Below are positions 11,508-27,016 of a stretch of 64,000 nt of DNA, in pieces (position 1 is the first letter of the stretch; every line of letters begins with the position of its first letter). The stretch is from NCBI GenBank assembly GCA_031258195.1, contig JAIRNF010000027.1:1-64000 (forward strand). Reading direction: 5' to 3'. Made by a program: the position numbers and the translations under genes. The notes under the pieces were generated by a model. That model was not told the origin of the DNA, made no database searches, and saw only the letters and a program-made list of their open reading frames with translations. This DNA is from Prevotellaceae bacterium (GTDB lineage Bacteria; Bacteroidota; Bacteroidia; Bacteroidales; UBA932).

Positions 11508-12655
11508 GGGCAATGCAAATATACTAAAGTCTATTAACATCATATTGGTTTATACCTCAAATCAATATAATGCAAGTTTGTATGCTGTCTTGCAATAAAA
11601 TCATTAAATCGTACGCGTCAGGTATTTTTCTTGTATTGTGTCTGTATGCAAATTCATTACAATACATTTGTAAATATTTATGACTAAATATATGGTATAT
11701 ACCTCTAATACCACGTTTTAACTGTGACCAAAAGCCCTCTATACCATTCGTGTGAAAGCCGTTCTTATTTGCATATTCTTTCGTATGATGCGTTACAACT
11801 TCATGTATATAGTCCTTAGATATGCCTAGATAAGCTGGGTACTCATCTGTTACAACCGTAGAACCTACCTCAACCAATCCGTAAATAATAGCATGCAATG
11901 TTTTTCTATTTGTATTTGGAACTACGACTGCATAAACTTTATCACCAGACAGTAAGCCTACTACCGGCATTTTCTGTTTAAGACCTCGTCCTTGATTATT
12001 TTTGAAACGTCCTTTATTTTACCTCCAACATAAGCTTCGTCTATCTGCACTACTCCATTAAATCTATTGGCTGCAATTACTTTTGTATCATTAGGAGTAT
12101 GCCGTATTCTAGTTAGCATAAACCAAGCAGTCTTTTGTGTAACACCAATATCCTTAGCCAGCTGTACGCTGCTTATGCCGTTTTTATGAGATAGAAATAC
12201 ATAAATAGCATAAAACCATTTTTCTAAAGGGACATTGCTGCCTTCAAATATAGTTCCAGTCATTACTGTAAATCTCTTTTTGCGGTTTTTGCATTTATAC
12301 AGTCCCTTAAATTCACCTTTATATGTTAGTTTATAATGATGTTCTGATTGATTCTTGCAGTAAGGACAGATTGGTACGCCTTGCCGTCTATGCTTTTCCA
12401 AATACTCTCTGCATGTTTTCTTATCATGCAAAGTGCTCATTAGCTGCATAAATGACTTTGGTTGTTGCATCAGGTGTATTCCATGCTGTTTGGGCTAAGT
12501 AATACTGGCGTTAGTATGAACTGTTCAATATATTTTTGTATTATAAATATAATCAAAATTTATAATATGCTAAAATTCAGCATATTAAAAGAATACGCTG
12601 ATGTATTTTAAGAATGTTAAATTGTGTTAAGCTATGTCTGCTACAAATGACCTCA
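11508..12655 (-). mobile_element. IS1595-family insertion sequence (about 1.15 kb)
   Basis: The element carries an ISXO2-like transposase. Its right end is fixed by a second copy of the same end at 52748, where homology starts at GTCATTTGTAGC. At the left, GGGCAATGCAAATATACTAA (from 11508) partly matches the inverted right end GTCATTTGTAGCAGACATAG and is the likely other terminal repeat. The length fits the family. I see no 8-bp target duplication, so flanking DNA may have been rearranged after insertion. It interrupts a coding sequence whose 3' part follows. Confidence 0.6.
11557..12470 (-). pseudogene. IS1595/ISXO2-like transposase, frameshifted
   Basis: Transposase in two frames. The first (from 12470) has the N-terminal zinc ribbon (CPYCKN ... 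YKCKNRKKRF), the helical region (GISSVQLAKDIGVTQKTAWF) and the first catalytic Asp in QIDEAYVGGK. The second (ending 11557) continues with MPVVGLLSGDKVYAVVVPN, the second Asp in VVTDEYPAY and the HTNGIEGFWSQLKRGI motif with the last catalytic residues. The frame joins if one A is restored in the run after YVGG (about 12010): GGTAAAA(A)TAAAGG would give the usual basic linker. So a one-base deletion in a poly-A tract inactivates it, unless ribosomal slippage occurs. Confidence 0.85.
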
Positions 12656-13021: not shown

Positions 13022-14191
13022 ATGAAAAAAACCATCTTACTTTTGCTTGCACTATGCCTATTTGCCGGCAATACATACAGCCAAAACAGCAAATCGAAAG
13101 ACGTATATGTAGAAATTCCATACAAGCTATCAAGTGGAATACCTGTAGTGGAAGTACTCATAAAAGGCAAGCCCTATAAGTTTGTGGTAGATACGAGAGC
13201 TCTTAAAACGTATATCGTTCGGCGTATTGTAGATGAGCAGTCGCTTAAGTTGAGAAAAAAGACCAAAAATGTGGGAGACGGGCAAGGCATACGTAAGCAA
13301 CAGCAACTGGCGGTAATTAATGATATGAAAGTAGGAGGAATTTCGTTTAAAACTTCCGAAGCAGCAGTTTCTGAAAACGACAGTTACCTTTTCAGCCGCT
13401 ATGATTTTGATGGCATTATTGGCGGCGATTTCCTGAAACGCTTTGTAGTAAAGTTCGACAGCCGGGCAAAAACCATAACGCTGACAACAGATGCGTTGCG
13501 CTTAGTATCAGACCAACAGCAGTGGAACAAAATGAAGATTTATTCTTTAAAAACCTACATCCCTATTCCGCTTAAAGGGGGCGGAACCGATAGTTATTTA
13601 TTTGATAGCGGAAGCGGCATGTCAACATTCGACATCGATACAGCTAGGTATCGTATCTATAAACAGCGAGATCTCTTCGATTTTTCGGACGAAGAGACGG
13701 GCTACGGAGCCACATCCGTAGGCTTACACGGAGAAAGGGCTTACGAGAAAAGAATTAGAGCTACGGCACCGGAGCTTAATGTGGGAGGATATATATTTCG
13801 CAATGTTCCCGTACAGACAACCAGAGTTTCTAAAATAGGGTTTATTGTGGCTAATTACGGCGATATTATTCTCGATTATACTGGCGAACGATATTGCTTT
13901 ATTCCTCACCAAGCCGAAGCCGATTGGACTGATACCCGTGGTAAAGTAGGCTTTTCGGTTATAGATTCTAGCTTGGTAGTTTCTCTTATATGGGGCGAAG
14001 AGTACGGTAGGTTTACCATAGGAGATAAGCTTGTAATGATTGGTAATAAACGGCTGGATACTATCGATAGATGTTATAGAAGAAGTATTTCGCCGTTAAT
14101 TAAAGAGCATATTACCACCGATAACGATACTATTCTTTTTGAAAAAGCTGACGGCGAGCGGTACGCTGTACCTGCCGATTTTTTTTTATAA
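13022..14191 (+). CDS. Exported retropepsin-like aspartic protease homologue with altered active site
   Basis: 389 residues with a signal peptide (cut near NTYSQ, residue 21). The mature protein is a Bacteroidetes aspartyl-protease-family protein: first lobe motif FVVDTRALK (Asp 57), a GGDFLKR turn near 134, second lobe motif LFDSGSG (Asp 195), and a C-terminal PDZ-like region (GDKLVMIGNKRL). The catalytic triad DTG is DTR in the first lobe, while the adjacent paralogue keeps DTG at the same residue number. Activity may be lost or changed. Followed 12 bases later by a tandem copy. Confidence 0.8.
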   Translation: MKKTILLLLALCLFAGNTYSQNSKSKDVYVEIPYKLSSGIPVVEVLIKGKPYKFVVDTRALKTYIVRRIVDEQSLKLRKKTKNVGDGQGIRKQQQLAVINDMKVGGISFKTSEAAVSENDSYLFSRYDFDGIIGGDFLKRFVVKFDSRAKTITLTTDALRLVSDQQQWNKMKIYSLKTYIPIPLKGGGTDSYLFDSGSGMSTFDIDTARYRIYKQRDLFDFSDEETGYGATSVGLHGERAYEKRIRATAPELNVGGYIFRNVPVQTTRVSKIGFIVANYGDIILDYTGERYCFIPHQAEADWTDTRGKVGFSVIDSSLVVSLIWGEEYGRFTIGDKLVMIGNKRLDTIDRCYRRSISPLIKEHITTDNDTILFEKADGERYAVPADFFL

Positions 14192-14203
14192 TTTATTATT
14201 GCT

Positions 14204-15605
14204 ATGAAAAAGACTTTATTATACCTACTTACTCTATGTTTGTTTATTGTCAACGGATACAGCCAAAGCGGCAAGTCGAAAAATGTTTATGAAGAAATTC
14301 CGTATGAGGTAATAGGCGGATGGCCCGTTATTAATGTCGTTATCGATGGTAGCACATATAAATTTGTGATAGATACCGGGGCTCCGGGTATTAATATCTC
14401 ACAGCGTGTTGTAGAAAAAGCTTCGTTAAAGACCAAGCAGAGGACAAAGAAAATTACAGATTCGCAAGGAGTGCAAGATAATCTGCGGCTGGCGGCAATT
14501 AAAGACATGAAGGTTGGAGGCATTAACTTCAGCACTTCTAAAGCGGCGGTCGGAATTTCGATTTTTAAATGTTATGACGGGTTGGACGGTATTATCGGAG
14601 GGGCTTTTCTAAAGAAATACGCCATAAAGTTTGATGATCGCGCTAAGGTGCTAACCATAACAAGTAACCCTTTTCTGTTAGTCGCAAAGCATCAGAAATG
14701 GAGCAGAATGAACGTTATTGCAGGTAAGCCCATCTTTTACTGGTATGATGGGGACGAAAGAAAAATGGCATATAACGTTCGGCAACGGGTTAAGCAATAC
14801 CACACGCCATATATAACCTTGATTATGGTAAGAGTTACAATCAACGGAATGATTTTAATCTACTGAACAGTAGTGTTTTGAAAAGAAAGAATCAACAATG
14901 GGTAACGTTATGGTAACGGATAGTCTGCGTTTTTATGCTGAAATCGGCAATTTCGGTATCGGACAGTCAAAGCCAATAAAAGGCGCAATTCTTTTGTATC
15001 CACTATGTTACATTGTTTTTCCTTTCTTTGCTTTGTTTACTGTTAGTCAGTATAACGTTTGCATGGCAGATAGTACTCTTGTTAACGAAGAGCTTGGCTA
15101 TGGCGCTACATCTTATGGGCTACACGGAGAACTTGTTAGCGCAACGCCGCGCAGGGCTATGCTGCCCGAGCGGAATATTAACGGGCATACATTTTTAAAG
15201 ATGTGGCTGTACGTTCCGGTAGAGAATCACTATTAGGTTTCACCTTGGTAAGCTACGGCGATGTTATTATCGATTATCCCGGCAGGCGTTACTGTTTTAT
15301 TCCTCATAAACCCGATGTTGAATGGAAAAGAGTGCAAAGTAAATATTCATACGCAGTAAAAGATTCGAAGCTTACGATAGTTGCCGCTTGGGATGGCATA
15401 CTACCCAAACAGGTAGCCGGTAGGCGACAAAATTATAATGGTTGGCAGCCAACGCCTGGAAGGATTCGACGAATGCGATAGGATATCTCTGACGACTTTA
15501 GCTAAAGAGCATACCACACCCGATAATAATACAATACTATTAGAAAAGCCAGATGGCGAGCAGTACACCATATCGGCGGCTTTGTTTTTATGGCAGCTGA
15601 TTTAG
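14204..15605 (+). pseudogene. Tandem paralogue of retropepsin-like protease, broken
   Basis: A second copy of the preceding gene. Its first 200 codons align nearly residue for residue with the neighbour (same signal peptide layout, FVIDTGAPG with intact DTG at residue 57), then the frame is lost near 14770-15060, where scrambled sequence replaces the second-lobe region. Homology resumes in other frames: ELGYGATSYGLHGEL (about 15090), SYGDVIIDYPGRRYCFIPH (about 15250) and, in a third frame, GDKIIMVGSQRLEGFDE to a stop at 15603. At least three frame disruptions make it a pseudogene. Confidence 0.78.
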
Positions 15606-16163: not shown

Positions 16164-17420
16164 ATGAAAAAACAAGCGGTTATTTTTTATGCGGTGCTAT
16201 TTAGCGTGGCTATCGGTATCGGTTTATCTTCGTGTAAAGGCAGCCCTAAAACAGACGAGAGCAAAGGCTCCGGCGAAGCGGAAGGAGCAACCGTAAACCT
16301 TACGTTAGAAATAATGGCGTCCGATATCCTTCATGAGCTGTCAGATCATAGTACCGACCCCATGTATCTGAAAGCATTTGCTATTGCCACAGAAAGGCAA
16401 AAAGCAGACACTACAGCCCATTTTATCGATCTGTTTGGTAAGGCGTGGGAAGAGCAAAATCCCGATGCGCGGCAGCCTTTGTTTTCGGCACATACCGACT
16501 TCGTGATAGGGTTCGCCCCGATTCGCCGAACTCTGAAGTTATCGGGGTGCTTACCGAAAAATATGAAGAAGCCATAGCCAACACAAGGAATAATCTTTGT
16601 GCACGGCTCGATCGGTATGGAGCGGCAAATGTTATGTTCCGTCGTATCGGAGTATCTAGCTGTGTTGTAATGACTGCGGATAATGTAGCCGACACTCAGC
16701 GCGTGCGCCAGCTGCTTACCCGAAGAGGTAAACTCGAGTTTTGGGAAACATACAACTCTATAGGCAGCGATATCGGCGTGTACGATCTTTTATATGCTGC
16801 CAACGAAATGCTGACCGGTTTGGTTGAAAAGGCGCCCTTACCCGAAAGATAGCAGCGCTGAGGAGCCTATCTATCATTTCCCGCTTTTCTCTATTCTTAC
16901 ACCCTCGATAGAAGGGAGCTACAGTACACCTTGCGTGGGACAGGCGCTAGAGAGCGATACGGCTAAGGTTAACGAAATACTTCGCATACCCGAAATGCGC
17001 AATATATTTCCGCCAAGCCTTAGGCTTCTGTGGACAGTAAGACCCTACTACAACGGGCTATACGAGCTAATAGCCATTAAGGTTAACTCAAGAGACGGAC
17101 GCGCTCCGCTAGACGGAGAAGTAATAGTTGACGCACGGGCGGAAGAAGAAGATCGGGGATGGGCTATAAGCGCAGTAATGACTGCCGAAGGAGCGAAACA
17201 TTGGGCATACCTAACTGCCGATAATATTGACAAATGGATAGCTATTGTATTGGACGATAAGGTCTATTTTTATGCATACGTGCTATCTGAAATTACAGGA
17301 GGTAAAATATCTATACCAGGTAGCTTTACAGAAAGCGAAGCCAAAGAAATGGCTCTCGTATTAAAATCTGGTATGCTGCCCGTTCCTGTTAGGCTTGTCG
17401 AAGAAGATAGCGGTCGATAG
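16164..17420 (+). pseudogene. Lipoprotein made of the SecD P1 periplasmic domain, frameshifted
   Basis: The start at 16164 gives a lipoprotein signal with lipobox LSSC. The mature protein follows the SecD periplasmic P1 domain end to end: VNLTLEIMASDILHELSDHS resembles SecD just after its first membrane helix, then FIDLFGKAWEEQNPDA, RDRVRPDSPNSEVIGVL, RGKLEFWETYN, DKWIAIVLDDKVY, ITGGKISIPGSFTESEAKE and ALVLKSGMLPVPVRLVEED, which in SecD lies just before the second helix. No SecD/SecF membrane part is present. The frame shifts twice: near 16500 (one base missing, probably C in GACC) and near 16830. Family likeness is strong; the role of a lipid-anchored P1 domain is unknown. Confidence 0.75.
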
Positions 17421-24756: not shown

Positions 24757-27016
24757 ATGAGAAAAATATTCCTATTTCTGCCGCTTGTGTTGGTTACCCT
24801 AAACCTTAACGCGCAGAAAATACACCTTATCGCAGATGCTCCGCAGCGGGCTGAAGCCGAGAAGCATTTTACAGTTAAGTATATTATTAATACAGTGTTG
24901 GAAGGTAATGTTACGCCATCGCTAAGCGGGCTGGATGGGTTTGAGGTGGTTAATGGATCGTATGTTTCGAATACATCCAGTACAACCATAACTAACGGTA
25001 AAGTTGTAAGTAGTAATAACACGGTGTTCACCTATGTTTTTATGGTGCCGAAAGGAGGAGTCTATACCATTCCATGCCTTACCATTAAGACCGAGCTGGG
25101 AGAATACTACTCTAACCCGCTACCAATAACCATACTGGAAAAAAAGATGATCCCGCAATAACCAGCCAATCTCCTTCTAAAACAAACCGAGCCGAGAAGC
25201 CTAAAATTACGATTCATGCTCCGAAAAAAGTTGTTGTAGGAGAGCAATTTCCGGTACACTACAATTTTGATATTAATCATGAAAACGCTAGGGGATGGCT
25301 TGGAGAGATAAGGGGTATGCGGCAGGTGGCAGCTCCTACGGAAAATTATATGTTCACAACTGTAGGAGGTACTGTTCGCCATGCCGTCACCTATGTATAT
25401 ATCTTTAAAGCTACAAAAGAAGGCGCTTTTACCCTGCCATCGTTTCATCTCGAGTTCGAGCAGAAAACATATGATTATACATCGCCTACTATTCCTATAA
25501 TAGCTGCTTCTTCCGATAACTCCGGCTTAGTGGGGCAGGATAAAGAAAATACGTTTATCCGGATAGAAGTGTCGGCAAAAGAAGCAAATGTCGGCGATAG
25601 AATTACAGCTGTATTAAAGTTCTATGGTAGGGATAGAGTCTTTGGTGTTGAAGATTTTAAAGTTCCGGAATTTGATGGGTTTTTAGTTGAAAAAGATAGT
25701 ACTTTTCAAGAGCTGGAAATGTATTCTGAGTTTATTAATGGTAAGCGTTTTAATACGTTTGAAATAAAAGAGTATGAGTCGGTGCCGCTATATGCCGGGG
25801 ATATGGCTATTGGCGAGTGCGCTATGGATGTGAGGATGGCGCCGGAGAAGAAAGGAGCGTATTTGATGATTTTTTTGGGAAAAATGAAGAGGCGACAACA
25901 ATAAAGATAAAAAACTTACCTGTACAAGTAACGGTATATCTTTCTGCTACCGTTGATATAGCTGATGATTCGGAGCTTATTGCTGAATCAGAAGAAACGG
26001 ATATCACAAATGCGGGAGAGGAAGACGCTGTAAAAATGGACTACAAAAAAATGCTGTTCTATGCCTCTATCGCCTTATTACTGATAGCTATGTTAGCATA
26101 TATCAGCAGGCTTAGCAGCTACCGTAACGAGTTGAAACAAAATAGAAGCCGCAGAAAAGATACCTCGGTCCAGCCGGCTGCCGGCTGGCAAATATCCTAT
26201 TTCGTAGTAATGGCGGTGTTAGTAGTGGCTGTCATATGGTTTTATTTGCCTGATAAATTCGGCGTTGCAGGCGGGTTGAATGATAAGCGGCAAAAGCCTG
26301 TGAGCATAGCTTACGCTCCCGATTTTTCTACATCGATGTTGGCAGAAGACATTACGCCTAACCGTATTAATGCTACTGTAGAGGCGTTGCTTAAGCATGC
26401 TAAGCATACCCCTGCCGATTATGTGGGATTGGTAGGTTTTGCCGGAAATAGTAAAGTATTATCTTCGATAGAGAATAGTAACACCCATCTTCGTAACGTG
26501 CTAAGGAAATTGGGTACGGTTTCTCATCTCTTTGCCGACGGTGCGGCCATAGGAGACGGATTGCTGCTTTCTATTAGCAATTTACTCGCTAAGCCGGATA
26601 CCCGCAGCTATATTATTCTTTTTACCGATGGAATGAATAATGGCGGAATGGTTTCGCCCAACACTGCTGCCGAGCCGATGAAAGCTTTAGGAATAAGACT
26701 TTATATTGTTGGTATAGGTTCTTATGAAGATGGTCCCATAAAAGTGCAAACTCCTAATGGAACGGTTTACCATAAGATACCCGTAGAGATAGATGATGAG
26801 CAATATACACGAATGGCGGCATCTACAGGCGAAAAATATTTCCGGGTTGCCGATAATGAGGACTTAAAACGGGTAAGTGGCGAAATAGATGCTCATATCA
26901 AAGAAAATATTTGGAAACCTGATGTGCCCGTAAACCCGTTCTCCTTCAGTAAAGAAGAGGCGTTGCAGGTAGTAAAAAAAGTGGTACTAAGAATAGATCG
27001 GCAAGTAGAAAAGTAG
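24757..27016 (+). pseudogene. BatD-VWA fusion protein, two frameshifts
   Basis: Combines two products of the Bacteroidetes aerotolerance (bat) operon. The N-terminal part has a signal peptide and BatD beta domains (KIHLIADAPQRAEAEKHFTV; GLDGFEVVNGSYVS; KKVVVGEQFPVHYNF; VFDDFFGKNEEA). It then passes in frame into a membrane segment (MLFYASIALLLIAMLAYI), a basic linker, a second membrane segment (ISYFVVMAVLVVAVIWFYLP) and a von Willebrand A domain with MIDAS residues DFSTS and FTDGMNNGG, as in BatA/BatB. The frame is lost in a seven-A run (25139-25145; eight would restore LEKKDDPAIT) and near 25858. Most bat operons encode these as separate proteins. No MoxR gene is adjacent. Confidence 0.75.

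Follow-up and report, generated by a model that had tools for sequence, protein, structure and literature searches.

A stand-alone SecD P1 domain behind a lipoprotein signal in Bacteroidales, with a broken copy in a Prevotellaceae contig

The gene at 16164–17420 (+) of a 64,000-nucleotide stretch of contig JAIRNF010000027.1 from a Prevotellaceae bacterium (assembly GCA_031258195.1; hereafter the window) is almost certainly a broken copy of a gene for a lipoprotein that consists of the SecD P1 domain on its own. A sequence-only reading of the window had proposed such an excised domain, and intact relatives that lack the SecD membrane helices were found in Bacteroidales, with no helix-bearing orthologue among them.

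The stretch reads as one gene only when two frame changes are allowed, confirming the earlier description of it as frameshifted twice; its extent is given by the frame joins and the family matches of the lipoprotein signal and P1 domain spread over three frames. The first frame (16164–16499) includes the signal peptide and, from residue 43, the N-terminal part of P1 (16290–16499), which aligns to SecDF P1 from residue 43–44. Comparison of the frames places a change equal to one lost base at about 16500 (16500–16501). The second frame (16502–16843) encodes the middle of the P1 base, including the motif LEFWETY, as judged from the reading frames and the alignment to SecDF. One extra base at about 16844, also located by frame comparison, returns the gene to frame 1 for the remainder of P1, including the P1 head (16845–17417). 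According to the sequence and a consensus comparison, the stop codon (17418–17420) precedes the position where SecD helix 2 would sit. The joined protein has 419 residues, two of them X at the joins.

The two indels are a net −1 followed by a +1, and the joined frame is otherwise free of stops. Since, in addition, identity of the window copy to SecDF is similar to that of intact members, the break looks recent and the copy looks like a fresh pseudogene. Assembly error may account for both frame changes, but the long open genes near the window gene and in the 12 kb around SecDF speak against assembly errors everywhere. Upstream lie an apparently broken IS1595-type transposase in two frames (11557–12470) and two aspartyl-protease-like copies, the first intact (13022–14191) and the second decayed and in pieces (14204–15481). 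Further along the window (24757–27016), a BatD-like gene (24757–25904) and the subsequent aerotolerance-type frames look interrupted.

The assignment to SecD P1 is carried by family and structure matches. Residues 314–408 of the joined protein match SecDF_P1_head (PF22599) with an E value of 2.4e-22 and 79.4 bits (gathering cut-off 27), a family defined on SecDF that is met here in a lipoprotein. The SecDF model NF009585 also matches (E 2.1e-72), its 244.5 bits lying far below the full-length cut-off of 1037; TIGR01129 likewise stays below its cut-off (89.5 versus 244.4 bits), and the match to PF21760, the N-terminal P1 family, is marginal (E 0.034). In the PDB the sequence matched five entries, each of them SecDF or SecD. 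The structure prediction that the sequence-only reading had called for was run on the third-frame head piece. The AlphaFold model (mean pLDDT 82) matched only SecDF structures at E ≤ 0.001, with a TM of about 0.45 and a high rmsd; the arrangement of its parts relative to one another therefore does not agree closely with SecDF. The lipoprotein thus has P1 in common with SecD and SecDF, the head being closest by sequence and predicted fold.

Similarity to SecDF begins at residue 43–44 of the joined protein, which corresponds to SecDF residue 110 or so; this point lies roughly 80 residues past helix 1 and directly after the GLDLKGG motif. The similarity ends about 15–20 residues ahead of helix 2. 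The proposed extent, from just after helix 1 to just before helix 2, therefore captured the P1 region but misplaced its start by about 80 residues. GLDLKGG is present in the SecDF consensus and absent from both the lipoprotein consensus and the window protein. Whereas SecD has six membrane helices and SecDF twelve, the stand-alone protein has none; a lipobox replaces helix 1, and there is no SecF part. The window's genome keeps an intact SecDF (1038 aa) on a separate contig, and the window protein shares 48% identity with it over the head part and 34% over the base part.

We searched 60 relatives, 57 of which have a match, nearly all within long SecDF frames. When 200 genomes of the family were scanned with PF22599 and those with two matches were followed up, extra short P1-head genes emerged in addition to SecDF, among them, in one genus, head-only P1 lipoproteins about 200 residues long. 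Two or more PF22599 matches occurred in 54 of 393 sampled Bacteroidales genomes. Once the genomes with a duplicated SecDF (two), a SecDF fragment (one) or a second match under the cut-off (six) are left out, about 45 of the 393, the window's genome included, carry an extra P1-head gene outside SecDF. A sample of 392 genomes across the phylum gave a second match in eleven genomes besides the window's own; one of these eleven, G549, gave two partial matches and may hold a split SecDF.

Translation of the regions around 40 extra P1-head genes yielded eleven intact lipoproteins with a full or near-full P1 and without a second helix, 368–446 residues long when counted from the first Met; in two of them (G711 and G871) most of the N-terminal stretch is missing. 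A shorter intact lipoprotein, in genome G108, has 323 residues if its frame is read from the first Met, although translation more likely starts at an inner Met. These twelve and the window protein make up the 13 lipoproteins compared below. A related copy in G007 is degenerate and broken. All examined carriers retain SecDF, so the stand-alone P1 protein is an addition. A keyword search of titles and the starts of abstracts, with thin coverage of subscription papers, found no description of stand-alone P1 lipoproteins. In automatic annotation, small proteins of this kind already go under the name of the Pfam domain.

The N terminus of the window protein is a lipoprotein-type signal peptide read directly from the sequence (16164–16235), MKKQAVIFYAVLFSVAIGIGLSSC, followed by KGSPK. 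Its lipobox LSSC places the Cys at residue 24, within the expected range of residues 15–35, and cleavage between GLSS and C makes a plausible SpII signal as judged by eye. A lipobox is also present in relatives, its Cys having been read by eye for six of the compared lipoproteins. Beyond the signal, a hydrophobicity scan found no membrane helix in the window protein or its 12 relatives, upholding the claim that all SecD and SecF helices are absent; in the window protein, the highest KD value of any 19-residue stretch is 1.11, below transmembrane hydrophobicity.

PMC5080379 describes the Bacteroidetes surface-export motif as K-(D/E)2, Q-A-(D/E)2 or SDDDD-like, placed right after the lipobox Cys. 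None of the 13 members fits the motifs given there (the window protein has CKGSPKTDE), so the lipoproteins more likely face the periplasm than the cell surface. The sequence-only reading had called the domain displayed as a lipoprotein: the signal stands, and display is doubtful if the cell surface was meant. A signal with Cys and no surface-export motif is shared with other periplasm-facing Bacteroidetes lipoproteins as described there, unlike which the stand-alone P1 protein carries a translocon domain.

Intact lipoproteins are under purifying selection in two pairs, each from a single genus. Nei-Gojobori averages over the whole stretch gave a dN/dS of 0.19 for G950/G746 and, as a rough figure given a dS of about 1.0, 0.27 for G885/G733. 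The SecDF P1 of the same pairs gave 0.065 each, with a SecDF dS of 1.6 for G885/G733.

The two parts of P1 differ in how well they are kept. Mean identity of the 13 lipoproteins to 43 SecDFs was 0.35–0.47 over the mid+head part and 0.20–0.35 over the base, which was the lower in 13 of 13. Pairs of SecDFs show a smaller difference between halves, with base means of 0.43, 0.47, 0.49 and 0.54 in the mid+head bands 0.40–0.50, 0.50–0.55, 0.55–0.60 and 0.60–0.65. From these two comparisons, the base is evidently relaxed and the head kept in the stand-alone form. In SecDF, the base of P1 is the link between the head and the membrane part. The pattern would fit a protein that is no longer coupled to the membrane motor and keeps the putative precursor-binding part, although stronger conservation of the head could serve some other contact.

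The lipoproteins have more than one origin. In a tree of the 13 lipoproteins, a group defined before tree building, and 43 SecDF P1s, several lipoprotein branches are long and the lipoproteins do not form one group; forcing monophyly costs 117 lnL and is rejected (AU p = 0.0002). After the five longest lipoprotein branches were left out, G960, G871 and G950/G746 each grouped with their own SecDF (SH-aLRT 100, 98 and 98), and G885/G733 did so weakly (74). When the halves of P1 were analysed separately, G960 joined its own SecDF in both the base and the mid+head tree (100 and 100). Because this grouping holds over both halves, the G960 copy clearly appears to derive from its own lineage's SecDF. 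G871 and G950/G746 grouped with their own SecDF in the mid+head half (99 and 99), and G950/G746 was unplaced in the base half. As the grouping is confined to the head half, these copies may either derive from their own SecDF or have had the head half converted. For the window copy, AU tests reject neither a grouping with the family's SecDFs (p 0.17) nor one with its own SecDF (p 0.27).

As for function, where the sequence-only reading had suggested a decoy, regulator or chaperone, we tentatively propose, with somewhat less than even confidence, that the protein presents a P1 head to the periplasm on a lipid tether and binds exported polypeptides with no SecDF motor attached, as an auxiliary holdase. 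It would be exported and lipidated and would face the periplasm from the inner or the outer membrane. By analogy with published work on the P1 head, the retained head would bind exported or still-translocating polypeptides, beside intact SecDF; PMC8082313 proposes that an amphiphilic cavity in the head binds precursors. With no helices, the protein could not use the proton motive force and would hold rather than pull. The YfgM-PpiD chaperone complex, as presented in PMC8082313, acts on clients leaving the channel and resembles the lipoprotein in this hypothesised role only, being no relative by any comparison made. Against the holdase proposal counts that the full-P1 genes share no neighbour tying them to export.

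A natural, helix-free P1 that some bacteria keep under selection offers a means of testing whether the head, separated from the proton-driven motor, can bind or hold exported proteins by itself. A broader possibility, of which we are rather doubtful, is that Bacteroidales have excised P1 from SecD and placed it on a lipid anchor on several independent occasions, the client-binding head being kept while the base drifts; P1 would then be a periplasmic chaperone module sufficient in itself. Repeated origin of this kind, if true, would point to a use for P1 on its own, as the intact copies apparently cut from SecD more than once already hint.

Three other explanations were weighed against the holdase proposal. 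The first, which we consider unlikely, is that free P1 docks on the partners of SecDF (SecF, SecY, YidC, BAM or SurA) and tunes SecDF activity, with no holding of clients. The P1 homology itself would agree with such a regulator or competitor, as would contact between BAM and periplasmic parts of SecDF, reported in PMC7695460. Of the two halves, however, the base is the less conserved, and in SecDF it is the part closer to the membrane partners; nor was a common neighbour or regulatory link seen at the full-P1 loci.

It is less probable still that stand-alone P1 genes are functionless SecDF fragments at various stages of decay, of which the window shows one. This account is true of the state of the window copy, with its two frameshifts, and accords with the broken G007 copy and with the broken look of the nearby aspartyl-protease copy and BatD-like gene. 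For the whole set it is unlikely: intact relatives have a lipobox and, in the two pairs, a dN/dS well under 1, and the long genes in the window and in the 12 kb around SecDF are open.

Least probable is that the lipoprotein acts as a decoy and, by its likeness to SecD P1, binds a toxin or a factor from a phage that is aimed at SecD: a conserved envelope domain copied onto a lipid anchor, a sporadic distribution and fast change relative to SecDF would fit, but the P1 proteins had no match in a defence library, no defence-like neighbourhood was recognised, no relative of the window head piece was found among viral contigs, and we know of no agent that uses SecD P1.

Among plasmids and phages searched with the G950 protein, the named features were all secD or secDF and the others were given as 'none' or unannotated (best 15 of 39 plasmid records; all five phage records). 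Four short unannotated 'Bacteriophage sp.' records from human faeces (MT837209, MT837264, MT837977 and MT839774) contain stretches resembling the SecD P1 head, which may be cellular sequence.

At the loci of the full-P1 genes, no shared neighbour was seen among up to four neighbours on each side, several loci ending at contig ends. In two cases, spotted after the fact, PrsW-type protease genes lie close by. One (L216, 6463–7707) is directly next to the G108 lipoprotein gene, 10 bases behind it; upstream of the G960 gene are PrsW and Rce1-like protease genes (L201, 1414–2193 and 4449–5303), the PrsW-type one four genes before. SecD_SecF_C matches in short frames with one stop, at G000:C21:16415-19791 (L004 and L006), probably belong to an RND-type transporter.

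Other small P1 proteins came to light. Head-only P1 lipoproteins or secreted proteins at four loci (L224, L229, L230 and L231), in carriers from different families, stand behind genes for a 97–101 aa regulator (with HTH_34 in L231) and a 203 aa protein that has no Pfam match. Eleven Bacteroidales loci (L208–L215, L221, L223 and L227) encode another kind of stand-alone P1-type protein, about 285 aa long, which has a signal or anchor and no lipobox. Each of these genes is preceded by one for a protein of 113–134 aa that has a hydrophobic stretch near its N terminus and often ends in a D-x-P-x-L-S-like sequence; neither of the two checked has a Pfam match. By analogy, a small protein so placed ahead of a Sec-related gene recalls arrest peptides.
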